A stretch of 50,864 nt of DNA from Verrucomicrobiota bacterium (GTDB lineage Bacteria; Verrucomicrobiota; Verrucomicrobiia; Opitutales; Opitutaceae): NCBI GenBank assembly GCA_016871595.1, contig VHCY01000006.1, positions 1 to 50,864 on the forward strand. Reading direction: 5' to 3'. Of the stretch, positions 37,051 to 50,864 are shown in pieces. The stretch's first letter is position 1; each line of letters begins with the position of its first letter. Both the position numbers and the translations under genes were made by a program. Under the pieces are notes generated by a model that saw only the letters and a program-made list of their open reading frames with translations, did not search any database and was not told the DNA's origin.

Positions 37051-37581
37051 TCAAGCGCGGAGATTGCCGCCGGGCGCGGTCAGGACCTCCTCGAGTTCGA
37101 TCCGCAGCGGGCGGCCGGGGGCGCAATCCGCCTTCAGCGCCACGAAGCCGTCGCGGTGCCGGTCAAAGAGGGGCCAGAGGGCCTGGCGGTCAGTGTCGGG
37201 GAGCGGCAGGGCGTCGATCGCGGCGCGGGAGAAGAAGGCGAACCGGCCCTCGTCAATGGGCGGTGGGAGCGCGCGCAGGGGCACGCGGCAGCGGAAGAGG
37301 AACATCAGCCAATGGGCGTGGCCCTCGTAGGCCTTCTCCGCGATCATCGCGAACAGGTGGAAATCCGCCGTCGCGACGCGATGGCCGGTCTCCTCGAAGG
37401 TTTCCCGGACGGCGCACTCGAAGGGGGATTCCCCCCGCGCGGTCTCCAGCTTGCCCCCGATCGGGCTCCACACGCCCAGGTTGGGCGCCTTGGCCCGCAG
37501 CATCAGCAGCAGTTCCCCGGCCTCGTTCTCGAGGAAAACCAGGACGGCGAGTTTGTGGGCCAGCGGGGCAGGGGAGGACAT
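37051..37581 (-). CDS. Nudix hydrolase
   Basis: A 176-residue pyrophosphohydrolase. The Nudix box spans GGKLETARGESPFECAVRE and continues TFEETGHR. Compared with the consensus, two extra residues lie between the leading Gly and the first Glu, while the REx2EExG core is intact. The N-terminal strand HKLAVLVFLENEAGELLLML and the VWSPIGGK approach are normal. The substrate (oxidised nucleotide, sugar nucleotide or other) cannot be predicted. The ATG at 37581 is chosen; a longer frame up to 37953 runs across the divergent gene and has no homology. Confidence 0.88.
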   Translation of the reverse strand: MSSPAPLAHKLAVLVFLENEAGELLLMLRAKAPNLGVWSPIGGKLETARGESPFECAVRETFEETGHRVATADFHLFAMIAEKAYEGHAHWLMFLFRCRVPLRALPPPIDEGRFAFFSRAAIDALPLPDTDRQALWPLFDRHRDGFVALKADCAPGRPLRIELEEVLTAPGGNLRA

Positions 37582-37589
37582 ATGCCGCG

Positions 37590-37631
37590 AAAAGTTTAAG
37601 CGTGACCCCGGCTTGGGGGCGCTCAACTTTT
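37590..37631. other. A/T-flanked hairpin in the divergent spacer
   Basis: AAAAGTT (37590-37596) pairs with AACTTTT (37625-37631). Between them GCG/CGC and CCCC/GGGG segments can extend the stem around a short loop. The right side runs into TTTTTT just 3 bp before the GTG of the next gene. It looks like a terminator or attenuator placed in a 55-bp divergent promoter region. It may block read-through into the pilus-type locus or expose its start; the role is speculative. Confidence 0.35.
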
Positions 37632-37636
37632 TTCCG

Positions 37637-38239
37637 GTGCTCCGCCTCACCCGCGTTCTCGCCTGGGTCCTCGCGCTTCCGTGGGCCGCGGCCGCCCCGG
37701 GCCCCGCGCCGGCCGTCGAGGTGATGAACCTGCGCACCAGCCAGGTGCGTCCGGCCAATGGCGGCCCCGCGTGGCTGGAGACGACCCTGGCGCTCAACGT
37801 GCGGCCGGCGGGCGGCGGGCCCTCGCCGGTGGTCTCGGCGGTGCGGGTCGCCCTCCTGATGGCCTTCGAGCTCCCGGCTCCTGCCGGCGGCCCCCGCCGG
37901 ACACAGGCGTACGCGGCCGCGTTGGAGTGCGTCGCCCTCGAGCCCGGGCGCACGGAGGTGCGGTTCTACCTGCCCCCGGAAATCCTCAAACGGGACCAGA
38001 TCCGTACGGACCCCAAATTTTGGGGGGTCGAACTGACCGCGGGAGGCGAGGCGCTCCCCGCCGCGCGCACGGCGTACTCCGCCAACCTCGGCACGCCCGC
38101 CGCGCGGACGGATTTCCAGCGGCGCTGGGCGGCAGCAGCGGCCGCGAACGACGGGATCCTGCAGCCCCAGCATCTCACGCCTTTCGCGCTGGAGTACCCG
38201 CGTTCGACGCCTTCCGTCGTCCGCCGAGAACCGCGCTGA
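37637..38239 (+). CDS. Secreted protein of pilus-type locus, possible Amuc_1102 counterpart
   Basis: 200 residues from a GTG at 37637. The N-terminus MLRLTRVLAWVLALPWAAAAP is a signal peptide. The remainder alternates beta-strand-like segments (VEVMNLRTSQVRPANGGPAW, TEVRFYLPPEILKRD, FWGVELTAGGEAL) and suggests one compact beta-rich domain, then a polar tail. I recognise no catalytic motif. It is encoded directly before the PilM-PilN fusion (74-bp gap). Its place matches that of Amuc_1102 in the Akkermansia locus. That correspondence is by position and general character only. Confidence 0.6.
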   Translation: MLRLTRVLAWVLALPWAAAAPGPAPAVEVMNLRTSQVRPANGGPAWLETTLALNVRPAGGGPSPVVSAVRVALLMAFELPAPAGGPRRTQAYAAALECVALEPGRTEVRFYLPPEILKRDQIRTDPKFWGVELTAGGEALPAARTAYSANLGTPAARTDFQRRWAAAAAANDGILQPQHLTPFALEYPRSTPSVVRREPR

Positions 38240-38313
38240 AGGTTCGCCGTAACCATAATACGCTTGCCGCGTCTCGCCCCATTTGAAATCGCCTTACTCC
38301 TTCTTGCCCAATT

Positions 38314-40062
38314 ATGCGCCCCCCCCGCATCCTCGCCGTTGATGTCGGCGCCGGCCACGTCGCCTGCGGGGTGTTTTCCGTCGGCGCGTCGGGCCGGCTG
38401 GTGCTGCAGCAGTTCGCGCTGGAGCCGCACAGCCCCGATCCCGCGCACGACAACCGTTGGTCGCTGGAGGTGGCGCAGTCCCTGGGTGCGATCGTCGCCC
38501 GCCGCCGCCTCGGGGGCCTCGCCGCCCTCGCGGTTCCCGGGCACCTGGCGCTGACCAAGTTCATCAAGACGCCCTCCGTCGCGAAGGAGAAGCGGGGCCG
38601 GATCGTCGCCTTCGAGGCCGCCGAGAACATCCCCCACGCGCTCGAGGAGGTCGTCTGGGACCACGCCGTGATCGCGGACGACGGCTTCGACCTCGAGGTG
38701 CTGCTCACCGCGGTGAAGTTCGAGGCGATGCAGGCGCTCTGCACGGCGGCCGACGCCGCCGGCTTCCCGGTGGAGCGCGCCACGCCCGCCGGGGTCGCGC
38801 TGTACCACGCCTTCCGGCACACGCACCCGCAGCAGGCCGAGCCGGTGATCGTCGCCAACGTGGGCGCGCGCACCACCACGCTGCTCTTCGCGGAGGGCGA
38901 GCGCTTCTCGCTCCGCAGCCTGGGGCTGGCGGGCAACGCGGTCACCCAGGCCATCGCCGACGAGTTGCGCATCGATTTCGCCTCCGCGGAGACGCTCAAG
39001 CTGCAGGTCCTCACCGGGCAGACCGACCTTCCGGCCAACTCGCCCTCGCGCGCGGCGGTGCAGCGTGCGGCGGCCACCTTCTGCTCCCGGCTGCAGCTCG
39101 AGATCACCCGCTCGGCCGTAAATCACCGGCGGCACACGGGCGCGAGTCCCGCGGTCGCCGTGTACCTGACGGGTGGCGGGTCGTTGCTCGCCGAGCTTCC
39201 CGCCGTTCTCGCCGAAAAGCTGCGGCTGCCGGTCGAGCGCCTCGAGGTCCTGCGCCAAGTGGATGTCGCCGCGGATGCCCGGGCGGGCGGCGCCGAGAAT
39301 TCCGCCGCCGTGCTCGCGGACCTCGTCGGCCTCGCCACCCGGCTGGTCAACCCCGGCGAGCAGGAGCCCAGCCTGCTGCCGCCCGCGCTCACCCGGGCGC
39401 TGGCCTTCCGCAAGCGCCAGCCGAGGCTGCTCGCCGCCGCCGCCGCCGCGACCCTCGCCTTCGCGCCCCCCGCCTATTTCTATCACCACGTCACCCGCGG
39501 TCTCCAGGAACAGGTTTCCCGGTACGACGGGCGGCTCATGCCGTTGCGCTCGGTGCAGAACCGCAATGATGGCAACCTCCGGCAGATCGCCGAGGCGGGG
39601 CGCCAGATCGCCGCCCTCAAGGGGGCTTACGAGACCAAGGCCAATTGGGTGAACTTCCTCGCCGGGCTCCAAGAGCGGCTGGTCCAGATCGAGGACGTCT
39701 GGCTCGACCGCCTCCAGGTGCAGCGCCCGCCCGTGGAGGAGACCGCCCTCGCGGACGCCCCCCCGCCCCCGGAGGAGCCCGCGCCGGCCGGCCAAGCCCC
39801 CGCTCCCGCCGCCGCGGTGGAGCCCCCGCCCGCGCCCAAGGGCCCGCCCGTCCGCCTCGCCCTGAGCGGGCGACTGCTCGACGTGAAGAACCCGCAGTCG
39901 AAGGTCAGCCCGGAGTCGATCGAGCGGGTGAAGCGACTGCTGGCCGGTTTCGCCGGCTCGCCGTTCGTGACCGCGGTGGAGAACGAGCGCTTCGACACGA
40001 GCCAGAACGGCATTCTGCGCTTTGATTTCACGCTGGTGATCAACCCGCGGCAGACCCTCTGA
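38314..40062 (+). CDS. PilM-PilN fusion: actin-like ATPase joined to bitopic membrane subunit
   Basis: 582 residues with two type IV pilus platform components in one chain. Residues 1-~345 are PilM/FtsA-like, with phosphate-1 loop LAVDVGAGHVACGVF (7-21), phosphate-2 VIVANVGARTTTLLF (178-192) and adenosine motif YLTGGGSLLAEL (284-295). Residues 352-357 (PSLLPP) resemble the INLLP motif by which PilN tails dock in PilM. A transmembrane helix follows (~371-388), then a coiled segment, VWLDRLQVQ, a Pro/Ala-rich loop and a PilN-type ferredoxin-like domain (RLALSGRLLDV to FDFTLVIN). The start ATG is at 38314. The next gene follows after 9 bp. Confidence 0.85.
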   Translation: MRPPRILAVDVGAGHVACGVFSVGASGRLVLQQFALEPHSPDPAHDNRWSLEVAQSLGAIVARRRLGGLAALAVPGHLALTKFIKTPSVAKEKRGRIVAFEAAENIPHALEEVVWDHAVIADDGFDLEVLLTAVKFEAMQALCTAADAAGFPVERATPAGVALYHAFRHTHPQQAEPVIVANVGARTTTLLFAEGERFSLRSLGLAGNAVTQAIADELRIDFASAETLKLQVLTGQTDLPANSPSRAAVQRAAATFCSRLQLEITRSAVNHRRHTGASPAVAVYLTGGGSLLAELPAVLAEKLRLPVERLEVLRQVDVAADARAGGAENSAAVLADLVGLATRLVNPGEQEPSLLPPALTRALAFRKRQPRLLAAAAAATLAFAPPAYFYHHVTRGLQEQVSRYDGRLMPLRSVQNRNDGNLRQIAEAGRQIAALKGAYETKANWVNFLAGLQERLVQIEDVWLDRLQVQRPPVEETALADAPPPPEEPAPAGQAPAPAAAVEPPPAPKGPPVRLALSGRLLDVKNPQSKVSPESIERVKRLLAGFAGSPFVTAVENERFDTSQNGILRFDFTLVINPRQTL

Positions 40063-40071
40063 GCGCCCCCG

Positions 40072-41103
40072 ATGAACTGGTACCGTCACTATCCGGGATT
40101 TGCGATCGGCCTCACGCTCTGCGGGCTGGTCGCCGCGGGGGAGATCGCGTTGGGCGTGGAGCGGTGGATGGCCTCCCGCGCCGAGGCGACCCGGCTGCAG
40201 CAGCGCCGCGCCGAGCTTGAGGGGATGGGCCAGCTCAATCCCGCGCCGACGCGCGAGGTGGCGGCCGCGATCGAGGCCGACCTCGCCCGGGCGCAGGCCG
40301 CGTTGGCGTCGATGAAGGCGGAACTTTCCGGTCAGCCGGCCGCGACCGAGAAGCTGCGCGCGGCCAAGGTGCCCGCCGCGCGGACGGACGCGTTCTTTGA
40401 CCTCGCGACGTACGTGGAGCGGGTCAAGGAGGCGGCCGCCAAGGCCGGCGTGCAGCTCCGCCCGGAGGCGGCCCGGGCCGGCTTCGCGCAGTACGCGAAC
40501 GAGGGTCCCGAGACGGACCGCATCGAGCCCGTCTTCCGCCAGCGCCAACTGGCCGAGCACCTGATGAACCTCCTGCTCGAGGCCCGTCCCGAGGCGATCC
40601 TCGCGGTCCGGCGGGAACGTCCCCGGACGAAGGCCGAACGCGAGGCGGAGGCGCAGGCGATCGCCAACGGCCAACCGCCGCCGGCCCCGGAAGGAGGCGA
40701 CGGCCCCGACTTCTTCGCGCTGGATCCCCGGGGCAGCGCGCGCGTCCCCGGCTTCGTGGAGACCAGCGCCTTCCGGCTGACCTTCCAAGGTGAGACCGCC
40801 GCGCTCCGCCAGTTCCTGAACCGGCTCGCCGCCTTCGAGCTGCCGTTCGTGGTTCGCGAGATCGAGGTCGAGCCGGTGAGCGCCGAGGATGCCGCGGCGG
40901 ACGCCCCCGTGGCCGCTCCGGTGGTCGCGCTGCCGAACGCCGCGCCCGCGGCCCGCGAGCCGTCGCCCGCCCTCGCCGCCAAGGGGCCCGTGCAGACCCC
41001 GTTGGTGCCGAAATCAACCTCCCGCTTCTCCGTCACGGTGGAGCACCTTGAGCTCCTCACCCCGCCGCCCGCCGAGGGCGCCGCGGAGGCGGCCAACCCC
41101 TGA
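40072..41103 (+). CDS. PilO-like membrane protein, Amuc_1100 family
   Basis: 343 residues, bitopic. A short cytoplasmic start (MNWYRHYPG) is followed by one transmembrane helix (~10-30), a coiled-coil stretch (VERWMASRAEATRLQQRRAE) and periplasmic domains. Recognisable parts are NPAPTREVAAAIEADLARAQ, VPAARTDAFFDLATYVERVK, AEHLMNLLLEARPEAI and the late FRLTFQGETAALRQFLNRLA, followed by VVREIEVEPV. The layout follows Amuc_1100 of Akkermansia, a PilO-like envelope protein, including the long Ala/Pro linker before the final strand FSVTVEHLELL. It would pair with the PilN part of the upstream fusion. The identification rests on architecture and locus order. Confidence 0.78.
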   Translation: MNWYRHYPGFAIGLTLCGLVAAGEIALGVERWMASRAEATRLQQRRAELEGMGQLNPAPTREVAAAIEADLARAQAALASMKAELSGQPAATEKLRAAKVPAARTDAFFDLATYVERVKEAAAKAGVQLRPEAARAGFAQYANEGPETDRIEPVFRQRQLAEHLMNLLLEARPEAILAVRRERPRTKAEREAEAQAIANGQPPPAPEGGDGPDFFALDPRGSARVPGFVETSAFRLTFQGETAALRQFLNRLAAFELPFVVREIEVEPVSAEDAAADAPVAAPVVALPNAAPAAREPSPALAAKGPVQTPLVPKSTSRFSVTVEHLELLTPPPAEGAAEAANP

Positions 41104-41119
41104 CCCGGCACCCCGTCGC

Positions 41120-41992
41120 ATGGCCGCCCTCCCCAGCGAAAAAATCTACCTCGGACTTGCCCTGCTGGTCGTCGCCGGCTCCGCCGCCGGCTTTGGCACG
41201 CTGGTGCTGCGGCAGGAACACGCCGACGCGGTGCCGCTGCCCGCGGTGCAGTTGAGCGAGGAGCTCTACGCCGCGAAAGCCGTCGCCGCGCCCCCCGTGA
41301 AGGTCGAGGCGTGGTCCGCCCCGGCCCCGCAGACCCGCGGCCGGGAGTGGGTCTACGACGCTTTCTCGCCCCCCGAGATCTATTACAACAGCCGTTCACG
41401 GCAGTTTTCGGTCAAACCGCCCGCGAGCCTGGTCGAGGGTGACGCGTCCGCGCCGTTCGGGCTCGAGCTGGTCGGAGTGCGGCCGGAGCCCTTCCGCCTC
41501 CAGTTGATCGGCTACGTGGGCGCCGCCGGCAATTGGCGCGGCACCTTCCAGAACACCCGGACCGGCGAGGTGTTCCTTGCCGCCGCCGGGCGCCGTCTGC
41601 CGACCCTTGGACTCACCATCCGGAGCCTCGACGTCGGGAGCCAGCCCGTGGCCGTCGCCGAGAGCATGACCACCCGCCAGCGCGTCGCCTCGGCCGTGGT
41701 GCGCGATGAGCAGTCCGGGCGCGACGTCACGCTGACGCACCGCGAGCGCGTCTACACCGGCACTTTGTTCGCCTTTGTCGCGGCGCCGGGGCAGTCCGCG
41801 ACCCGCGAGGTCCGGTCCGGTGATTCCTTCAAGCTGGGCGAGGCCACCTACCGGATCGAGAAGATCGAGGCGACGCCACCCTCGGTCGAAGTGCTGAAGG
41901 AGGCCGCGAGCCTTTCCCAGCCCGACCGGCGGATTTTGCTGCCCCGCGAACCCGAGGCCCCCGAGGAGGGGAACCCCGTGCCGACCTCCTGA
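41120..41992 (+). CDS. PilP/GspC-like membrane protein, possible Amuc_1099 counterpart
   Basis: 290 residues with an N-terminal transmembrane helix (~9-30, LGLALLVVAGSAAGFGTLVL) and a periplasmic body. Two stretches look like homology-region domains of PilP/GspC. The first is FRLQLIGYVG to TFQNTRTGEVFLAAAGRRLP with LGLTIRSLDV; the second is TLTHRERVYTGTLFAFVA to SGDSFKLGEATYRIEKIE. In pilus and type II systems such domains link the inner-membrane platform to the secretin. It lies 16 bp after the PilO-like gene and 29 bp before the secretin gene. ATG 41120 is the only start that leaves the membrane helix at the N-terminus. Confidence 0.72.
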   Translation: MAALPSEKIYLGLALLVVAGSAAGFGTLVLRQEHADAVPLPAVQLSEELYAAKAVAAPPVKVEAWSAPAPQTRGREWVYDAFSPPEIYYNSRSRQFSVKPPASLVEGDASAPFGLELVGVRPEPFRLQLIGYVGAAGNWRGTFQNTRTGEVFLAAAGRRLPTLGLTIRSLDVGSQPVAVAESMTTRQRVASAVVRDEQSGRDVTLTHRERVYTGTLFAFVAAPGQSATREVRSGDSFKLGEATYRIEKIEATPPSVEVLKEAASLSQPDRRILLPREPEAPEEGNPVPTS

Positions 41993-42021
41993 CCCTTTCC
42001 CCGCCAATCCTTTCCTCTGCA

Positions 42022-44793
42022 ATGAATACCCGCCCCGTCCCCGTGTCCCTGTTCGTCGCGCTGGCCGCCGCCCTTTGCTGCTTGGCTCCCGTCGCGCGCG
42101 ATGTCCGGGCGCAAACCCCCACGGACACCAAGATCCGCCTGATGGCCGAGGCGCTCCGCGCGCGTGACGCAGGGGATCTGGCAGCGGCTCAGGAGGCCCT
42201 CGCCCGGCTCGCGGCGCTCAGCCCCGATGACCGAGCGGTGCAGCGGCTCCGGGCCGAGGTCGAGGCCCAGGCCCGCGCCCGTCCCGCCGCCACCCCGGTC
42301 GCGGCGGCGCCGGCGCGAACGGCCCCGGCGATGGTCGAGGTGCGCATCCCGGATCCGGCCCAACCGCCCCCGCCGTCCGCCCCGAGCCCGGAGCAGGAGG
42401 CCGAGGCCCTCGCTCGCGCGGAGACCGCCCGCCTGGAGCAGCTTGTCGCCACCGCGCAGACGCAGCTCTCCACCGCCCGCACGCAGGCCCGCGGGGGCCG
42501 CTACGAGGAGGCCATCACCACGGTGGACGCCGCCATCGCGGCGCTGCCCGCCAACCCGGTCACTCAGAAGGTCGCCGGCGACCTCCGGGCCGAGAAGGCC
42601 TCCGCCCTGCTCGACCGCGCCCAGGCGTTGGTCCGCGGTGGAGACATCGCCGGGGCGCGCGCCGCGATGATCGCCCACGATCAGCTGGCCAGCCCGAACG
42701 CCCGCGCCGCCGGGATCGAACGCCAGATCGCGCGCGCCGAGACGCGGCCGCTGGCGGCCGGCGTCGATCCGGCCTTCGTCTCCGACCGTGCCGCCACCGC
42801 CCAGCTCATCGCGAAGGGTCGGGCCCAGTACGTCGCGGGCGACTTGGATGGGGCGCAGGAGACCTTCCGCGGCATCGAGGCGCAGGAACCCGACAACACC
42901 GTCGCCAAGGGTTTCCTCCTCCGGATCGCCGAGGAGAAGACCGAGATGGGCGCGCTGAACCGCGAGAAGACCCGCGCCCAGTTGCTCGAGGAGGTCGCGA
43001 AGAGCTGGCAGCGCCCCGGGATTTACCAGGAGCGCCCCCGCGAGGCCGATCGTGCGGCCGCCGTCGGCCCGCTCGCCCAGAAGCTTTCCCAGATCACGCT
43101 GCCGGCGGTCAGCTGGACCCGGGCCCCGATCGGTGACGTGGTCGCCGCCCTGAGCGCGATCTCCGAGGAGTTCGACAACTCTGGCACCCCGGGCGCCAAG
43201 GGCGTCAACGTCGTCCTCATCGACACCAGCAACAAGAACCCCCTGGTCACGCTCACCCTGCGCAACGCCACCCTCAAGCGGGTCCTCGATTTCGTCACCG
43301 AGGCCGTCGGCTACCAGTACGAGGTGCAGGCCGACGCGGTGGTGGTCCGCCCGGGCGGCGAGACCACGACGCTCGAGACCCAGTTCTTCCCGGTCACCCG
43401 CGCCACGGTGCTGCGGATGACCGGCATCACCAGCGCGGCCTCCGCCACCGCTTCCCGCGAGGGTGGGGCGGCGGGCGAGGCCGAGTCCGCGGCGCCCGGC
43501 GGCGAGGCCGCCGCGATGAAGGCCTTTCTCCAACAGGCTGGTGTCAGCTTCACCGTCGAGGGCAGCTCGCTCGCCTATGACGGGTCCGCGATCCTCGTGA
43601 CCCAGACCGCGCGCAACAACGAGCGCATCCGCAACATCCTCGCCCGTTACAACGACGTCCGCCAGGTCGAGATCGAGGCCAAGTTTATGGAGGTGCAGGA
43701 GGGGGCGCTCGAGGAGCTCGGGGTCACCTGGAACCTGAACCGCCGCGGCATCGCCCGCGTCAACCCGTCCACCGGCGCGCCCGTGCTCGACGTGAATGGC
43801 CGCCAGATCTTCGACCCGCAGGAGACCTATACCAGCGCCGGGGTCACCCGCCCCCTGGTCGGCGCCTTCCCGAGCACCTCGAACGCGAACGCGCTCGTCA
43901 TCAAGGATCCCGCGATCTCTCTGTCGGAAACCGATCCGAACCAGACGCAGGGCCAGTTGCGGGTTCCGGTCTCGCCCACCGGCGTGCCCGGCAGCGTCCA
44001 GCTGGCGGCCACGGCCAACGCCCTCGCGAACATCGTCGGCTTCGTGGGTGAGTTCGATGTCAGCGCGGCGGTCCGCGCCCTCTCGCAGAAGCAGGGCACC
44101 GACCTGCTCAGCTCGCCCAAACTGACGGTGCTCTCCGGCAACCCCGCGAACATCACCGTCGCCCAGGAACTGCGCTACCCGCAGAGCTACGGCGAAATCC
44201 AGAGCCAGGTCGGCACCGGCGCGGTCGCCGGCGGCGCGGCCGGCGTGACGATCACCGCCGGGACGCCGCAGGAGTTCACCGCCCGCAATGTCGGCGTGGA
44301 ACTCAAGGTGACGCCCACCGTGGAGGAGGACGACTACAGCATCAGCCTCGACCTGAACCCCCGGGTCACCGAGTTCGAGGGCTTCGTCGAGTACGGCGGC
44401 CCCAGCGTCGCCATCTCGGGCACCACCACGGTCACCGTGCCGCCGGGCTTCTACCAGCCGATCTTCTCGGTGCGCGACATCTCGACCAAAGTCACGATCT
44501 GGGACGGCGCGACGCTCGTGATGGGCGGCCTGACCCGGGAGGAGGTCAAGAAGGTGAATGACAAGATCCCGTTCTTCGGGGACCTGCCGCTCGTGGGCCG
44601 GCTCTTTCGCTCGAAGGGCGAGAGCGCCCAGAAGCGCAACCTGCTGATCTTCGTGACGGCCAACCTCGTCAGCCCGGGTGGGTCGCCCAAGAAGCAGAAC
44701 CTCAAGAGCACGCCCGCCAACTCGCTCTTCCAGAACCCGACGATCGTGACCCCGGCCAGCGCCGAGCCGCGCACCCGCAGCAGCGCGAAGTAA
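42022..44793 (+). CDS. Secretin (PilQ/GspD-like outer-membrane channel) with N-terminal TPR-like region
   Basis: 923 residues. A signal peptide (VSLFVALAAALCCLAPVARDVRA) is followed by a ~280-residue helical, TPR-like region (AAQEALARLAALSPDDRAVQ, GRAQYVAGDLDGAQETFRGI). N-domains follow (ITLPAVSWTRAPIGDVVAAL, LRNATLKRVLDFVTEAVGYQ, RNNERIRNILARYNDVRQVE). The secretin core runs from KFMEVQEGALEELGVTWNL to the C-terminal LVMGGLTREEVKKVNDKIP and PFFGDLPLVGRLFRSK. It should form the outer-membrane ring of the pilus or secretion machine encoded upstream. The last ~50 residues are a polar extension. The giant Ig-repeat gene begins 18 bp after its stop. Confidence 0.92.
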   Translation: MNTRPVPVSLFVALAAALCCLAPVARDVRAQTPTDTKIRLMAEALRARDAGDLAAAQEALARLAALSPDDRAVQRLRAEVEAQARARPAATPVAAAPARTAPAMVEVRIPDPAQPPPPSAPSPEQEAEALARAETARLEQLVATAQTQLSTARTQARGGRYEEAITTVDAAIAALPANPVTQKVAGDLRAEKASALLDRAQALVRGGDIAGARAAMIAHDQLASPNARAAGIERQIARAETRPLAAGVDPAFVSDRAATAQLIAKGRAQYVAGDLDGAQETFRGIEAQEPDNTVAKGFLLRIAEEKTEMGALNREKTRAQLLEEVAKSWQRPGIYQERPREADRAAAVGPLAQKLSQITLPAVSWTRAPIGDVVAALSAISEEFDNSGTPGAKGVNVVLIDTSNKNPLVTLTLRNATLKRVLDFVTEAVGYQYEVQADAVVVRPGGETTTLETQFFPVTRATVLRMTGITSAASATASREGGAAGEAESAAPGGEAAAMKAFLQQAGVSFTVEGSSLAYDGSAILVTQTARNNERIRNILARYNDVRQVEIEAKFMEVQEGALEELGVTWNLNRRGIARVNPSTGAPVLDVNGRQIFDPQETYTSAGVTRPLVGAFPSTSNANALVIKDPAISLSETDPNQTQGQLRVPVSPTGVPGSVQLAATANALANIVGFVGEFDVSAAVRALSQKQGTDLLSSPKLTVLSGNPANITVAQELRYPQSYGEIQSQVGTGAVAGGAAGVTITAGTPQEFTARNVGVELKVTPTVEEDDYSISLDLNPRVTEFEGFVEYGGPSVAISGTTTVTVPPGFYQPIFSVRDISTKVTIWDGATLVMGGLTREEVKKVNDKIPFFGDLPLVGRLFRSKGESAQKRNLLIFVTANLVSPGGSPKKQNLKSTPANSLFQNPTIVTPASAEPRTRSSAK

Positions 44794-44811
44794 CCCGCCC
44801 CGCCGCCCGCC

Positions 44812-47800
44812 ATGCCTCCCTCCTTCCGCCGCGTCTCGTCGGTGCTGGCCGGCCTCGCCGCGCTGGCCGCCGCCCCGGTTGCGCTCGGCACGCCGTCGAT
44901 TAGCAGTTTGACCCCCGCTTCGGGTTCCATCTCCGGGGTGGTGAGTACCCCCTCAGGGCAGCCCATCACGGTCACAGCCACGCCGACTGCCGGGGCCTCC
45001 ATTGTTTCCGTGGTGGTCTCGGTGAACGGGAGCAGCCTTGGTAACGCCACGCTGACTGCGCCTTCGACCTACTCCTTGCCCTGGTTCCCGAGCGTCGCCG
45101 GCACCTACACCATCTCAGCCACGGTAACCGACAACTCGAACAACACTGCGGCCTCGCCGAACAACCTGACCGCCTCCAGCACTATCACGATTCCCGCGGC
45201 CCGCTCGGCGCAGGTTCTCGCCCCGTCGAACAACGGCTCCCTGGTGCTCAATTCCAAGGTCTTCCTGCGCGCCTCCGCCGCGATGTCCGACGGGGTGGTG
45301 CAACGGGTGGACTACCTGCTCGATCCCGGAACTCCGGGCGAGAGGCTCCTGACGTCCGCCAACCAGTCACCCTTCAACGCTGCCTACACGGTCTCCGGGG
45401 TAGCGGTTGGCACCCACGTGTTGATCGCGCGTGCGACCGCGAGTGACGGCGTGACGACCTTCGATTCGCCTCCGGTGAACATCAACGTGGTGTCCGCGGT
45501 GGGCAGCCCTCCCGTGCCCAGCCTGACCTCGCCCGCTGCGGGCGCCTACGTCGCCACCAGCACCGCCATCACCCTCGCGGCCACGGCTAGCGACCCGGAC
45601 GGGTTCATTCCGAGCACCCCGGGTGGCGGCCTCACCTTCTTCGCGGACGGCGACCCGATCGGCACGGATCTCACCGCTCCCTACACGGTCTCCTGGACCC
45701 CGACCGTGGCGAAATCCTACTCGCTCGTGGTGCAGGCGGTGGACGATCGGGGAAATACGGGGCAGTCCGCGCCCCTCATTGTCAACGCGGTTGCCTCGCT
45801 TCCCACCGTCACCCTTTCCGCCCCGACCACCGCGACGCTGGCCGCCGCAACCACCCTCAGCGCGACCGCCTCCGGCAGTGCCGGGGAGTCGGTCGCCACC
45901 GTCCGGTTCCTGGTTAACGGCGTGCCAGTCAGCGGTCTTCTCGGGACTGCCCCTTTCACGGCGTCCTGGACGCCCGCCGCACTGGGCAGTGCTTCCGTCA
46001 CCGCTCAGGTCACGGATACCGCGGGCATCACCGTGACCTCATTGCCGGCCAATGTCGTGGTCTCCGCGGCTAGCGGATCGGCCGTGTCGCTGCTGGCGCC
46101 GGCGAACGGGACCAGCTTGGCACAAGGCGCACAGGTCTTCCTGCGCTCCACGGCCGCCATCGCGGGCAATATCATCAGCCGCGTCGACTATTACCTCGAC
46201 GGCGCGCCGCTCCCCGGGGCGAGCGTGGGCCAGGCCCCCTACAATTTCGCCTACACCGTGAGCGCGGCGCCGGGGGTGCACACGCTCTTCGCCCGTGCGG
46301 TGGCCAGCGATGGGGCCACCAGCGTGGACTCGGCCGCCGTTTCCTTCACCGTTGTCCCGGCGGTGGGATTTCCGCCGGCCGTCGAGCTGACCAGTCCGGC
46401 GCCGGCTTCCTTTGTCCTCGTGGGCTCCCCGGTGCCTCTGGCCGCCGTCGCCTCCGACGCTGACGGCTTCATCTCGCCCAACGCCGGTGGCGGAGTGACC
46501 TTCTATGCGGACGGGGATCCCGTAGGTAGTGATTTGCTCGCCCCATACGCGTCCTCGTGGACGCCGACAGTCGCCAAGCTGTATTCGCTCCGCGCCCAGA
46601 CGGTAGACGACAAGGGTAACCTCGTGCTGTCCGCCCCGATTGCGGTGACGGCGCTCGCGGCGCTTCCCACGGTCGCGCTGGTGTCCCCGCCGACCAGCGC
46701 CTCGCAGGGCGTGCCCGTGCAGCTTACGGCTGCGGCCAACGCCAGTCCCGGTGCCTCCGTGGCGCGCGTCCTGTTCTTCGCTAACGGAGTCCAGATCGGT
46801 TCCCCCGCGCTGACTGTGCCATACAGCGTGTCCTGGGTTCCCGGGGCCTCGGGTCCCACCGCCCTGACCGTTCAAGTGATTGACTCCTTGGGCGCCGCGA
46901 TCACTTCCGCCCCGATTTCAGTCACGGTCGCGTCGACCAGCGCCCCGGTGGTGCTGACGGCGCCGGGCACTGGCGCGGTGGTGCCGGTCGGGACGCCGAT
47001 TGATGTCACGGCGACGGCGGCCGCGCCGACGGCGGGTGCGTCGGTGGCCCAGGTGCAGTTCCTTGCGGGCACGACGGTCATTGGCACGGTGAATACGGCG
47101 GTGGCCGGGGCTTACCGCATCAAATGGGCCCCGACGGCCGGCAACAGCACGCTGACGGCGCGGGTGACGGACACGCTCGGCGGGACCGCCACCTCGGCGC
47201 CCGTGGTGGTGACCGGCGTGGCGGCGACGACGGTCGCGCTGACCGCGCCCGCGGCCAACGCCAACGCCACGGTCGGCACGGCGCTGAACCTGGCCGCCAC
47301 CGCGGCGGCCACGCTTGGGGCGGTCATCACTCAGGTTGAGTTCTTGGCCGGGAGCGTTCCGGTCGGGATCGCCACCACGGCACCGTTTACCTTCGCCTGG
47401 ACACCGACGGTAGCGGGGCCGGTTTCGCTGACCGCCCGCGCCACCGACAGCTTCGGGACGGTCGTGGCCTCCACCCCCGTCTCGATCAACGTGGTCAACT
47501 CGGCCCCTGCCGCCACGATCACCAGCCCGGTGCCCGGAAACCTGCTGAATGCAGGAACGCCGGTGACGATCACGGCCGCCGTGGTTTTGGGGTCGTCCGG
47601 AGCGCCGGTCACGCGGGTCCAATTCCTGGCAGGAAGTTCCGTCGTGGCCACCGTGGCAGGGGATCCCTCGCTCGCCTCCTACTCGGCCACGTGGACCCCC
47701 GCCTCCGCGGGCGACTTCAATCTTAGCGTGCGCATCACGGACGCGAACGGAGCCGTCGCTACCTCCCCGGTGGTCAATGTGACGGTAGTCACAGTCAGCA

Positions 47801-50800
47801 CCCAGATCGTGATCACAAGCCCGTCCCCGGGTGGAGCGCAGGTCGGCACCCCCATCGTGATTTCCGCCACTGTAGATGCGGCGCCCGGGGTATCCATCAC
47901 TCAGGTCCAGTTCCTGGCCGGTTCCACCGTCGTCGCTACTGTCCCTGGCTCCGCCAACGCGACCAGTTACAGCGCCACTTGGACCCCGACGGTCGCCGGC
48001 TCCTACAACCTGACCGTGCGCACCACCGATTCCAACGGCGCCGTGCGCAATTCGGCGGCGGTGCAGATCGTGGCGCAGGCGACCACGGTCGCGTTGTCCT
48101 TGCTGCCCGCGGGTACCAGCATCCCCGTCAATTCCTCGCGCATGATCAGCGCGACTGCCTCCGCGCCCGCGGGGGTCGCCTCGGTGGAGTTCTTTTACGT
48201 CGGATCCGGCGGCGTCTCGCTCATCGGCAAGGACACCGCGCCACCCTACAACGTGCTGTTCACGGCTCCGGACGAGCCAGGGCCCCGTTTCCTCCGCGCG
48301 CGCGCCACCGACATCCTCGGTCAATCCGTGGACTCCGCTGACTTCGCGATCAGCATCACCGGGCAAATCGGGGTGGCTCCCACCTTGGGCATCCTCACGC
48401 CGGTCAGCGGCTCGTTCGTGGCTGCCAACAACACGGCCACGATCTCGGGCACCGCCACCGACGCCGACGGCTCGATCACCAGCGTCCAGGTGTTTGTGAA
48501 CGGCACCACCGCGGGACTCGCCGGAGCTGGTGTGACCGGCGTCACCAACGGGGTTTGGTCCGTCAACTGGACGCCTACCTCCTCCGGGGTGGCTTCCATC
48601 TCGGCGATCGCGACGGACAACGCCGGCAATGCCGTGGCCGCGCCCGCGGTGGGCGTGAACATCTCCGATAGCACGTCCCCGTCGATCTCCCTCAGCCTCT
48701 CCCCACGCACGGCGGCGGCCGCGGCGAGCACCACGTTGCCCAGCGGGGCCGTCCGCACGTTGGTGGCGGATGTCACGCCCTCCTCCGGCCGCGCCGTGGT
48801 CCGGGTCGAATTCTTCATCGATGGCACCAAGGTCGCCGAGGATACCTCCGCGCCCTACACATATCGTTACACCGCCCCTCCCCTAGCGGCGGGCGACCAG
48901 TCCCAGCCCTACGTGATCTCGGCGCGGGCCACCGACAACGCGGGAACGGCCCGTGACACCCAGATCTCGATGCTGGTCATCTCGCCTGCGGGCGGCCCGC
49001 CCACCGTCAACCTGCTCACGCCGGCCAACGGCGCCTCCACCACGCCGGGATCCGCCATCAGCCTCGCGGCCACGGCCACCTCCATCGACAGCACGATCGC
49101 GAGCGTCCAGTTCTATGTGAATGGCAGCCCCGCCCCGGTCAACGGGGGCAACGGCATCACCGCCGCGCCCTACGTCACGACCTTCGTGCCGACCCTGCCA
49201 GGGTCTTACGTGATCGACGCGATCGCGACCGACGCCCGCGGCAACACGGCGATCTCGGGTTCCGTGACGGTGTCGGCCGCCCTCCCGATCCCGACCATCG
49301 TCTTCACGGCCCCGAATCCGAACGCCACCGCCCGGGCCACGCCGGGGGTGCCGCTCACCCTCGCGGCCACGCCCTCCGTGCTGGGCGGCGGCGCGCAGTT
49401 CCTGCTGGTCGAATTCCTCCTCGACGGCGTGCAGATCGGCGCGGACACGACCGCACCTTACACCTTCTCGTGGATCCCGACGGCGGCCCAGCTCGGCGAG
49501 CGCGTCCTCACCGCCCGGGTCACCGACCTCAACGCCCAGGTCGTCACCTCGGCCCCCATCACCGTCAACGTCGCCAACGTGGTCGGCTCGCCGCCCACGG
49601 TCACGGTTTCCGCCACGCCGATCCCCGGGAACGGCCTGCAGACCGCCTCGACGGTGAACTTCCAGGCCCTGGCGGTCGCCACCGGCACCGGCTCCACGCT
49701 CCGCAACGTCGAGATCTTCCTCAACGACATCAGCATCGGCCTCGCGACCCGCGAGCAGACCACGAACTTCTACCGCCGGGCCTTCGACCTGAGCCAGTTC
49801 GACTTCAGCACGATCACGCCGACCATCAACGAGAACACCGGCGCGGTCACCTACCCGGTGCGGCTCTACGCCATCGCCCGCGACAGCAACAACAACCAGA
49901 CGGTCTCGCCGACGGTCAACCTGACCATCTTCCCGGCCACCAGCGCTCCGCCGACCATCCAGGTCCAGGCGCTGACCCCGACGAACATCACCGCCGGCAC
50001 TCAGTTCTTTATGCAGGCGAACCTCAACGACCCGGATGGCAACGTGAGCACCGTCCAGCTCTACGCCAACGGCAGCCTCGTGGGGAATTTCCCGAATCCG
50101 CAGCAGGGCCAGCTCCTGACCTACACCGCCAACACGGCGGGACGGTTCAACCTGTACGCGGTCGCCACGGACGAGACTGGCAACACCGCCGTTTCCACCC
50201 CCTCCATCGTCATTAACGTCACGGCTGTCACCGCCCCCACCACCGCCATCACCCGACCGTCGGACAACAGCACCGCGACGACCGTCGGTTCCCCCGTCTT
50301 CCTCGAGGGCACCGCCGTCAATGCCGTGACGACCCAGGTCCCGACCCTCCAGTTCATCGCCACCGCGGCCGGCGGCGCCCGCCAGGTCATCAGCGGCACC
50401 CGTGTCGGCACCACCACCAGCTACCGCGCGATCTGGACCCCCACCAATCCCGACACCTACACGATCACTACCCAGGCCTCCGTCGGCAACGTCCAGGGCA
50501 CGAGCACGACCTCCCGCCGGGTGGTCGTCAGCGATGTCGTGGGCCTGGCTCCGACGATCAGTCTGACCCGATCGCCCGGGGTCCTCGGCTACCCGACCTC
50601 GGCCCAGACCGCCTCCTCCGCGGACTTCGCGGCCACCGCGCAGGATCCCGATGGCGCCGTTGTCGCCGTCGAGTTCTTCCTCAACCGCTTCAGCATCGGT
50701 CAGGCGCGCCGGGATCCCCAAGGCAATACATGGCGCCTGCAGGCCTCGTTCGCCGGGCTCCAGCCCGGGGCGACCGAGATCGTGGCCCTCGCCCGCGACA

Positions 50801-50864
50801 GCTCCGGCAACGTCGTCCCCTCGGCCACGGGCTCCATCAACGTGACCGCCGCCGCCAGCATCGC
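44812..50864 (+). CDS. Giant secreted tandem Ig-like repeat protein (3' end outside window)
   Basis: An open frame from the ATG at 44812 to the window edge, at least 2017 residues. A signal peptide (basic MPPSFRR, then VLAGLAALAAAPVALG) is followed by about 20 Ig-like domains of ~90-115 residues. They resemble the Big_7/Big_9 bacterial Ig families. The recurring consensus is an entry such as PTVxLTSPA, then VxxVxFxxxGxxIGxxxxAPYxxxWTP, then GxYxLxAxATDxxG. I see no cysteine in the translated part. Domains 2-4 are a near-duplicate of domains 5-7. It starts 18 bp after the secretin stop, with no terminator seen, so it is probably co-expressed. An adhesin, stalk or matrix protein is likely; a catalytic or anchoring C-terminus could lie beyond the window. 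Confidence 0.88.
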   Translation, partial: MPPSFRRVSSVLAGLAALAAAPVALGTPSISSLTPASGSISGVVSTPSGQPITVTATPTAGASIVSVVVSVNGSSLGNATLTAPSTYSLPWFPSVAGTYTISATVTDNSNNTAASPNNLTASSTITIPAARSAQVLAPSNNGSLVLNSKVFLRASAAMSDGVVQRVDYLLDPGTPGERLLTSANQSPFNAAYTVSGVAVGTHVLIARATASDGVTTFDSPPVNINVVSAVGSPPVPSLTSPAAGAYVATSTAITLAATASDPDGFIPSTPGGGLTFFADGDPIGTDLTAPYTVSWTPTVAKSYSLVVQAVDDRGNTGQSAPLIVNAVASLPTVTLSAPTTATLAAATTLSATASGSAGESVATVRFLVNGVPVSGLLGTAPFTASWTPAALGSASVTAQVTDTAGITVTSLPANVVVSAASGSAVSLLAPANGTSLAQGAQVFLRSTAAIAGNIISRVDYYLDGAPLPGASVGQAPYNFAYTVSAAPGVHTLFARAVASDGATSVDSAAVSFTVVPAVGFPPAVELTSPAPASFVLVGSPVPLAAVASDADGFISPNAGGGVTFYADGDPVGSDLLAPYASSWTPTVAKLYSLRAQTVDDKGNLVLSAPIAVTALAALPTVALVSPPTSASQGVPVQLTAAANASPGASVARVLFFANGVQIGSPALTVPYSVSWVPGASGPTALTVQVIDSLGAAITSAPISVTVASTSAPVVLTAPGTGAVVPVGTPIDVTATAAAPTAGASVAQVQFLAGTTVIGTVNTAVAGAYRIKWAPTAGNSTLTARVTDTLGGTATSAPVVVTGVAATTVALTAPAANANATVGTALNLAATAAATLGAVITQVEFLAGSVPVGIATTAPFTFAWTPTVAGPVSLTARATDSFGTVVASTPVSINVVNSAPAATITSPVPGNLLNAGTPVTITAAVVLGSSGAPVTRVQFLAGSSVVATVAGDPSLASYSATWTPASAGDFNLSVRITDANGAVATSPVVNVTVVTVSTQIVITSPSPGGAQVGTPIVISATVDAAPGVSITQVQFLAGSTVVATVPGSANATSYSATWTPTVAGSYNLTVRTTDSNGAVRNSAAVQIVAQATTVALSLLPAGTSIPVNSSRMISATASAPAGVASVEFFYVGSGGVSLIGKDTAPPYNVLFTAPDEPGPRFLRARATDILGQSVDSADFAISITGQIGVAPTLGILTPVSGSFVAANNTATISGTATDADGSITSVQVFVNGTTAGLAGAGVTGVTNGVWSVNWTPTSSGVASISAIATDNAGNAVAAPAVGVNISDSTSPSISLSLSPRTAAAAASTTLPSGAVRTLVADVTPSSGRAVVRVEFFIDGTKVAEDTSAPYTYRYTAPPLAAGDQSQPYVISARATDNAGTARDTQISMLVISPAGGPPTVNLLTPANGASTTPGSAISLAATATSIDSTIASVQFYVNGSPAPVNGGNGITAAPYVTTFVPTLPGSYVIDAIATDARGNTAISGSVTVSAALPIPTIVFTAPNPNATARATPGVPLTLAATPSVLGGGAQFLLVEFLLDGVQIGADTTAPYTFSWIPTAAQLGERVLTARVTDLNAQVVTSAPITVNVANVVGSPPTVTVSATPIPGNGLQTASTVNFQALAVATGTGSTLRNVEIFLNDISIGLATREQTTNFYRRAFDLSQFDFSTITPTINENTGAVTYPVRLYAIARDSNNNQTVSPTVNLTIFPATSAPPTIQVQALTPTNITAGTQFFMQANLNDPDGNVSTVQLYANGSLVGNFPNPQQGQLLTYTANTAGRFNLYAVATDETGNTAVSTPSIVINVTAVTAPTTAITRPSDNSTATTVGSPVFLEGTAVNAVTTQVPTLQFIATAAGGARQVISGTRVGTTTSYRAIWTPTNPDTYTITTQASVGNVQGTSTTSRRVVVSDVVGLAPTISLTRSPGVLGYPTSAQTASSADFAATAQDPDGAVVAVEFFLNRFSIGQARRDPQGNTWRLQASFAGLQPGATEIVALARDSSGNVVPSATGSINVTAAASI
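45199..46068 (+). repeat. Ig-domain triplet, copy A
   Basis: This 870-bp stretch encodes three different Ig-like domains in a fixed order. The first has VFLRASAAMSDGVVQRVDYL, the second GGGLTFFADGDPIGTDL, the third ATVRFLVNGVPVSG. The same order recurs immediately downstream in copy B, so the unit of duplication is three domains rather than one. Confidence 0.8.
46069..46935 (+). repeat. Ig-domain triplet, copy B
   Basis: This 867-bp stretch directly follows copy A and repeats it domain by domain: VFLRSTAAIAGNIISRVDYY, GGGVTFYADGDPVGSDL and ARVLFFANGVQIGS. Length differs by one codon. Similarity is obvious in protein but clearly diverged, so the duplication is not recent. Confidence 0.8.

Follow-up and report, generated by a model that had tools for sequence, protein, structure and literature searches.

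The window analysed here is the whole of contig C6 (VHCY01000006.1; 50,864 bases) from a Verrucomicrobiota bacterium of the family Opitutaceae, the genome of which comprises 3.6 Mb on 444 contigs at a completeness of ~90%. The terminal part of the window carries six open reading frames (ORFs), all on the plus strand (Table 1). Five tightly packed core genes (37637-44793) encode a pilus-type machine, and the sixth gene encodes a giant protein with immunoglobulin-like (Ig) repeats. The core is already known from Akkermansia; the giant Ig partner has been added to it in one lineage, in which it is conserved.

Table 1. Coordinates of the pilus-type core genes and of the adjoining Ig-repeat gene in the window
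Feature	Position	Strand	Basis or remark
Small secreted protein, Amuc_1102 (MUL2A)-like	37637..38239	+	Predicted structure compared with 7dsz
PilM-PilN fusion, Amuc_1101 (MUL2B)-like	38314..40062	+	NF045709, PF11104 PilM_2, PDB 3jc8
PilO/Amuc_1100-like protein	40072..41103	+	NF038287
PilP/GspC-like protein (Amuc_1099 position)	41120..41992	+	Position and homologs in relatives
PilQ/Amuc_1098-type secretin, N-terminal TPR region	42022..44793	+	NF042912, PF00263, TPR matches
Spacer between secretin stop and Ig start, 18 nucleotides (nt)	44794..44811	+	No terminator- or sigma70-like site nearby
Giant Ig-repeat (Big_7) protein, truncated by the contig end	44812..50862	+	PF17957, 17 stretches

An initial annotation, made from the sequence alone, had read the five genes as a small secreted protein, a PilM-PilN fusion, a PilO/Amuc_1100-like protein, a PilP/GspC-like protein and a secretin, in the Amuc_1102-to-Amuc_1098 order of Akkermansia. 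Family scans and predicted structure agree with these identities and with the gene order, the PilP/GspC-like protein (Amuc_1099) being placed by position. For the secretin we obtained 414.4 bits (E 8.5e-124) with Amuc_1098_fam (NF042912, cut-off 750 bits) and 121.4 bits with the Pfam family Secretin (PF00263), together with N-terminal TPR matches, and its solved relatives are GspD/PilQ secretins. The PilM-PilN fusion scored 297.2 bits (E 2.9e-88) with Amuc_1101_fam (NF045709, cut-off 650) and 67.6 bits with PilM_2 (PF11104), and it matched the PilM of PDB entry 3jc8 at E 2.4e-17. Residues 1-304 of the PilO-like protein matched Amuc_1100_fam (NF038287, cut-off 180) with 79.9 bits (E 2.2e-22), and neither Pfam nor the PDB sequence search returned a match for it. 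The first gene lies in an ORF spanning 37451-38239, and a start at 37637 gives a protein of 200 amino acids (aa), which is near the length of many orthologs. When its sequence was searched against the PDB, no match was found. Its AlphaFold model (pLDDT 90.1) matched the crystal structure of Amuc_1102 (7dsz) in Foldseek at E 5.7e-7 and aligned with it at Z 18.1 (165 residues, root-mean-square deviation 2.6 Å, 19% identity), far above the next-best listed entry (Z 8.1). The most likely start of the PilP/GspC-like gene, picked by eye on the ORF list, is 41120. Family scans (Pfam, NCBIfam) of this protein gave no significant match, and the label is based on its position and on homologs in 74 of 80 named loci. 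A search of 84,980 genomes gave 551 loci, the best 80 of which are the named loci; they overlap with the coded genomes of relatives considered below, so that the two counts are not independent. More than 6 kb of sequence before the secretin is available for 55 of the named loci, and 40 of these carry the small protein, PilM-PilN, PilO and PilP in this order. The remaining 15 all lack a detected small protein, and in one of them (L258) the PilO and PilP matches fall into one ORF.

In the type IVa pilus operons pilMNOPQ of proteobacteria such as Pseudomonas and Myxococcus, PilM, N, O, P and Q follow in this order with the secretin, and the motor genes lie elsewhere. The window shares this layout, but here PilM and PilN are fused, an extra Amuc_1102-like protein is present and an Ig gene ends the row. 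With the Amuc_1098-1102/MUL2 locus of Akkermansia, the window shares the families and their order (Amuc_1099 by position only) as well as the Amuc_1102 fold (Z 18.1). However, its scores fall below all three NCBIfam equivalog cut-offs (650, 180 and 750 bits), and thus the proteins are family relatives and not Akkermansia equivalogs. The window also differs by the giant Ig gene that adjoins its secretin. In the 9 loci of coded family f23, which genome size and scores over the cut-off mark as probable Akkermansiaceae, no Big_7-like ORF was found. By eye, coaE- and rho-like genes lie near the secretin in many loci of the phylum, and coaE and rho also adjoin MUL2 (PMC13174399). The machine has been described as Amuc_1098-1102/MUL2 (PMC13174399 and, in the parts of the text available, PMC5332112 and PMC4960237). 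Thus, the initial annotation's suggestion of an undescribed system is too strong for the core. For the association with the giant Ig gene, literature searches found no published report. According to PMC13174399, Amuc_1098-1102/MUL2 of Akkermansia is needed for attachment to, or uptake of, glycans or mucin, and in Akkermansiaceae MUL2 is a type IV-like pilus that attaches to mucin or fucose-rich glycans. The available part of PMC4960237 locates the Akkermansia PilQ to the outer membrane by immunogold. Four genomes of the Akkermansiaceae-like family f23 (G075, G299, G302, G288) carry two or three Amuc_1098-type secretins at separate places.

The initial annotation had reported no pilin, PilB/PilT or PilC gene at the locus. 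None was found on the window contig (prepilin peptidase was not searched for), and the locus is devoid of GspE and GspF genes, but genes of these types are encoded elsewhere in the genome. On contig C17, genes of the PilB/GspE, PilT, PilB/GspE and PilC/GspF types follow each other in a row. The PilT protein reached 454 bits when the whole genome was searched; a partial stretch of it scored 377.9 bits, against a cut-off of 319.1. The better of the two other ATPases reached 610.6 bits with PilB (cut-off 675.65) and 630.4 bits with GspE (cut-off 630.25), and the PilC/GspF-type protein (363-367 bits) stayed under all cut-offs. Additional ATPase or platform genes were found on C8, C15, C41 and C148, and a second PilT on C7. 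The set on C15 includes a GspD-like protein (252.5 bits, cut-off 351.35), a GspE-like protein (539.1 bits, cut-off 630.25) and two T2SSF stretches. Taken together, the PilT calls exceed the curated cut-off and the PilB, PilC and GspD calls do not. With E <= 0.01, 16 prepilin-like N-methyl matches were found on C8, C9, C24 and C37, each of them exceeding the family cut-off. A motor-less export or anchoring apparatus, which the initial annotation had deduced from the missing motor genes, was therefore rejected as an inference from absence. With motor-type and prepilin-like genes in the genome, the most plausible interpretation is that the locus encodes two parts, alignment complex and secretin, of a Verrucomicrobiota type IVa pilus of the Amuc_1102-1098/MUL2 kind, the genes of which are dispersed.

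The Ig protein comprises 2017 aa up to the contig end, where its frame is still open. The Pfam scan assigned 456.9 bits to Big_7 (PF17957) across 17 stretches, and in a whole-genome search (E <= 0.001) all 16 Big_7 matches fell inside this single ORF. The protein is devoid of cysteine, has an isoelectric point of 4.59 and carries, by eye, a Sec-type signal peptide. Its missing C-terminus is most likely encoded at the start of contig C1 (2-706), which matches positions 96-330 of the orthologous C-terminus with 433.6 bits. Since this match is open at the contig edge, the Ig gene is probably split between C6 and C1, and we kept the two contigs unjoined. Complete Ig proteins of the close relatives G009, G014 and G019 have 2728-2917 aa. 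The 18 complete Ig proteins with a secretin gene as neighbour measure between 1018 and 3189 aa and contain 3 to 24 Big_7 domains; in those of the main clade defined below, 8-24 Ig domains were counted. At the DNA level, only a single weak row of tandem repeats was found in the Ig gene. Such variation in length would be odd for a fixed envelope part. The tight coupling of the two genes might suggest that the Ig protein is no adhesin and has a scaffolding role instead, anchoring the secretin in the envelope or setting its spacing there. However, most relatives have the machine without an Ig protein, and we consider a structural role of this kind highly improbable.

For the own genome and the same-genus coded genomes we read 24 secretin loci, 21 of which were judgeable; the sequence of L079, L099 and L102 stops within the secretin or shortly behind it, and these three were left uncounted. 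The Ig gene follows the secretin immediately in 19 of the 21, and the two others (G002, G004) have a divergent secretin or locus and no Ig gene. In the window the Ig start at 44812, 18 bp past the secretin stop, was confirmed. The called gap in the 19 loci is 18 nt in 10 cases, 19 nt in two and 3-25 nt in 17. The overall range is -35 to 25 nt; in both loci with a negative value the start was called too early, and an ATG stands 18 nt past the stop. The uncounted L079 also has an ATG at this distance. The initial annotation had named a strong terminator and a separate promoter with unlinked expression at this junction as evidence against coupling; neither terminator- nor sigma70-like sites were found in 44400-45100.

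For the loci of the genus, the other coded loci of the phylum and the named loci, downstream genes were simple ORF choices and not calls of a trained gene finder; in the latter two sets Big_7 was scored by a local profile built from the 16 matches of the window. After the secretin we found an Ig gene in 28 of the 80 loci, a 5'-3' exonuclease within 400 nt in 19 and other genes in 29, and 4 remained undetermined. On the secretin tree (79 rows; the fragment L268 was left out), 22 of the 27 scored Ig cases fall into one clade of 23 (SH-aLRT 99). All 22 judgeable members of this clade carry the Ig gene, and in the remaining one the sequence breaks off 38 nt behind the secretin. On this tree the Ig state switches at least 4 times, with L205, L219, L221, L226, L230, L240 and L269 left out of the state count. 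L199 was left out of alignment A3, and 5 of the 21 listed secretins out of alignment A2. Outside the main clade, Ig genes occupy the same slot in L217/L222/L224, L254 and L267. These data bear out the expectation of the initial annotation that a large Ig gene is conserved directly downstream of the secretin, and lack of conservation, which it had named as refuting evidence, was not observed. The confinement of Big_7 to one ORF of the own genome together with the conserved linkage indicates that the coupling of secretin and Ig gene is more than chance.

As for the origin of the slot, the exonuclease directly adjoins the secretin in the 19 loci mentioned above (PF02739/PF01367 for the L078 copy), and by eye many loci of the phylum have a similar exonuclease-like neighbour followed by coaE- and rho-like genes. 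Among 14 testable Ig loci, an exonuclease lies within 160 nt past the Ig stop in 7 and 5.6 kb further on in one. Because the exonuclease adjoins the secretin in the former loci and follows the Ig gene in the latter, it looks as if the Ig gene was inserted into an old gene pair, between secretin and exonuclease, with later rearrangement in some lineages.

The Ig gene is also missing where the locus is missing. G006 (85% complete), G015 (94%) and G022 (100%) have no Amuc_1098-type secretin, no PilM-PilN and no Ig C-terminus of the linked type; their secretin matches are weak (best E about 1e-20), and no PilM-PilN match was better than 1e-6. G005 carries a diverged PilM (E 2.7e-41) and has neither such a secretin nor a linked-type C-terminus. 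In G026 (80% complete), PilM-PilN and the Ig C-terminus lie on separate contigs and no Amuc_1098-type secretin was found. These observations bear on the idea that the Ig gene is a bystander, an ordinary adhesin gene that was inserted behind a strongly expressed operon and shares its transcript without any tie to the pilus. The restriction of the Ig gene to a lineage is what one would expect in this case. However, the gene is retained by all judgeable clade members despite widely varying repeat numbers, it is absent together with the locus, and Ig proteins stand in the same slot in other clades. We regard a bystander as unlikely, but as a serious rival of the proposal made below.

The slot after the secretin also holds other large genes. 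In a second clade (L222, L224, L219, L226), the gene after the secretin has PD40 propeller-like stretches, accompanied by Big_7 repeats in L222 and L224; in L219 and L226 it is cut by the contig end. The corresponding gene of L270 encodes pre-peptidase-C (PPC) domains. L222 (CAMCZZ010000004.1) is a metagenome-assembled genome labelled Akkermansia muciniphila, but its secretin groups with Opitutaceae-labelled ones and this species label is probably wrong. In G033, locus L071 (8235-8984; contig shared with L236) encodes a secreted protein of 249 aa between secretin and exonuclease. It is a relative of the module at the C-terminus of the giant Ig protein (E 1.9e-25) and has no detected Ig repeats. 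Possibly, its gene represents a precursor of the giant gene or a reduced form of it. An Ig gene was found in 18 of the 40 loci with an Amuc_1102-like gene and in one of the 15 without (L229, L232, L244, L245, L247, L250, L255, L257, L258, L260, L261, L265, L267, L270, L273), a count that ignores kinship. The secretins of these 15 loci are mostly short (except that of L270, 922 aa), and L267 is the one with the Ig gene. The small Amuc_1102-like protein may be needed for the Ig partner.

The C-terminus of the Ig protein is a double module. Among the 15 complete proteins from the main clade, 14 have this end, closing in EVYDVDP or EVYDIDP. The module is the best-conserved part of the protein (62-81% identity versus 51-64% in the middle, six pairs). 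Pfam scans gave no match for this module. A PDB sequence search with the 330-column alignment A1 returned matches up to E 0.5 only on the first 53 columns, which cover the Ig domain preceding the module, and two chance-level matches (E 0.53 and 0.95) touched the module itself. For the structural model of the module (mean pLDDT 72.9), the best Foldseek match was the tandem collagen-binding domain 5iku (E 3.2e-7, probability 1.00, TM 0.29/0.34). VIA Z-scores were 8.7 for 3afg, 8.2 for 1nqj and 8.1 for 5sv5, and the unrelated channel N-terminal domain 9ev8 (8.3) ties with them. The modelled module thus resembles tandem collagen-binding/pre-peptidase-C domains with borderline scores, which is a lead and not an assignment.

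Module matches are frequent in the genus (15-64 per genome, rough counts since most genomes were scored on 38 candidates only). The double module, with endings such as ...VEVYDVDP or VEIYELP, caps many otherwise different secreted proteins (L285:1344-3371, L280:1828-3675, and C15 at L104:11493-13918). On the own contig C15 (L104:7654-13918), the GspD-GspE-GspF-like set stands divergent to a module-bearing gene that a frameshift seems to have split. The match stops 0-4 residues before the protein end in 12 of 13 sampled single-gene paralogs, and the L287 paralog continues for 191 residues beyond it; two rows, which are two ORFs of one C15 stretch with an apparent frameshift, were left out of this count. 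In a comparison with 13 sampled paralogs, the C-termini of the Ig proteins from the clade grouped together (13 of 13 rows, SH-aLRT 100). The terminal position in most carriers had raised the idea that the module is an export signal for PilQ. We rejected this idea, since G006, G015 and G022, which lack this secretin, carry equally many matches (53-61), and the module thus provides no evidence for export of the Ig protein through PilQ. Rather than a PilQ signal, it seems to be a cap for the surface or for secretion that many proteins have in common, and it may represent a so far unnamed domain for sorting or surface capping, its fold being pre-peptidase-C-like.

The same counts bear on the view that PilMNOPQ is a type II-like secretion apparatus dedicated to the Ig protein as its client. 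Operon coupling and the joint absence of Ig gene and locus are in line with such an exporter, and so are the other large secreted proteins in the same slot (PPC in L270, PD40 in L219 and L226). However, the genome encodes motor-type proteins and a PilT retraction ATPase, the module is independent of this PilQ, and most relatives keep the machine without an Ig gene. We regard a dedicated exporter as improbable, but likewise as a serious rival.

On the basis of comparative sequence evidence we propose, with a probability of roughly 55%, that the giant Ig protein is a candidate surface adhesin or tether that works with the pilus machine and was gained as operon partner in one Opitutaceae lineage. 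In this model the small secreted protein, PilM-PilN, PilO, PilP and PilQ would form an envelope-spanning channel, and the PilB-, PilC- and PilT-type proteins, the genes of which lie elsewhere, would pair with it to build and retract the filament. The Ig protein would reach the periplasm by Sec, as its signal peptide suggests, and might cross the outer membrane through the secretin, the type II-like system that is also present or another route. At the cell surface it would form a long, nearly cysteine-free Ig stalk, usually ending in two pre-peptidase-C/collagen-binding-like domains, and together with the pilus it would act as an adhesin or tether that binds particles or glycans. This job resembles that of PilY1, the tip adhesin of type IVa pili, which the available parts of PMC7541494 and PMC8833165 describe as a large secreted, pilus-tied protein mediating contact. 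The T4P_PilY1 domain was absent from Pfam scans of the window Ig protein (E <= 0.1) and of two full-length orthologs (E <= 0.01), and a genome-wide PilY1 search matched none of 57 genomes, with the control genomes silent as well. The proposal is supported by the identity of the core, the motor genes, the tight junction, the conservation throughout the clade, the joint absence, the insertion pattern, the recurrence in other clades and the grouping of the C-termini. In addition, this machine has been linked to attachment to glycans in Akkermansiaceae (PMC13174399).

Several observations weigh against this proposal. Most relatives lack the Ig gene next to the secretin: within the order but outside the genus it was found in 5 of 30 cases (G031, G138, G208, G038, G039; 4 loci end within less than 1 kb), and outside the order no Big_7-like ORF was found in 55 loci when all ORFs were scanned (2 loci end less than 700 bases past the secretin match). 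Much of the conservation of the linkage is shared descent inside one clade. No exonuclease was found downstream of the Ig gene in 6 of the 14 testable Ig loci. In G024, secretin and Ig start are present and the linked-type C-terminus was not found; absence calls by the C-terminus can thus be false, and a missing C-terminus alone is weak evidence. The C17 ATPase is called PilB because PilT adjoins, its score narrowly passing the GspE cut-off and missing that of PilB. PilT also occurs in G005, G006, G015 and G022 without an Amuc_1098-type secretin, and hence motor and window locus are not strictly tied. Finally, the C-terminal module is common to many unrelated secreted proteins and therefore gives no sequence pointer to pilus export.

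A more far-reaching version of the adhesin proposal, which is possible but rather doubtful, combines two suggestions. The Ig protein would be the working end of the pilus machine, a new kind of pilus-coupled adhesin that has no kinship with PilY1 and changes its reach as Ig domains are gained and lost. The slot after the secretin would be a general site at which Opitutales place large proteins of the surface, of the Ig, PD40 propeller plus Ig or PPC type, to direct one conserved glycan-grabbing machine to other targets.

In Akkermansiaceae the Amuc_1098-1102 machine is tied to attachment to mucin and fucose-rich glycans (PMC13174399). Freshwater relatives of Akkermansia, a gut bacterium, share these pilus genes, and in the lineage in which the Ig gene directly adjoins them the Ig protein is a good candidate for the component that takes hold of surfaces outside the cell. 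A conserved adhesin candidate in the same operon offers a concrete, testable answer to how freshwater Opitutaceae make contact with their substrates. The contents of the slot behind the secretin vary, which hints at a way in which a single machine might be directed to new targets.

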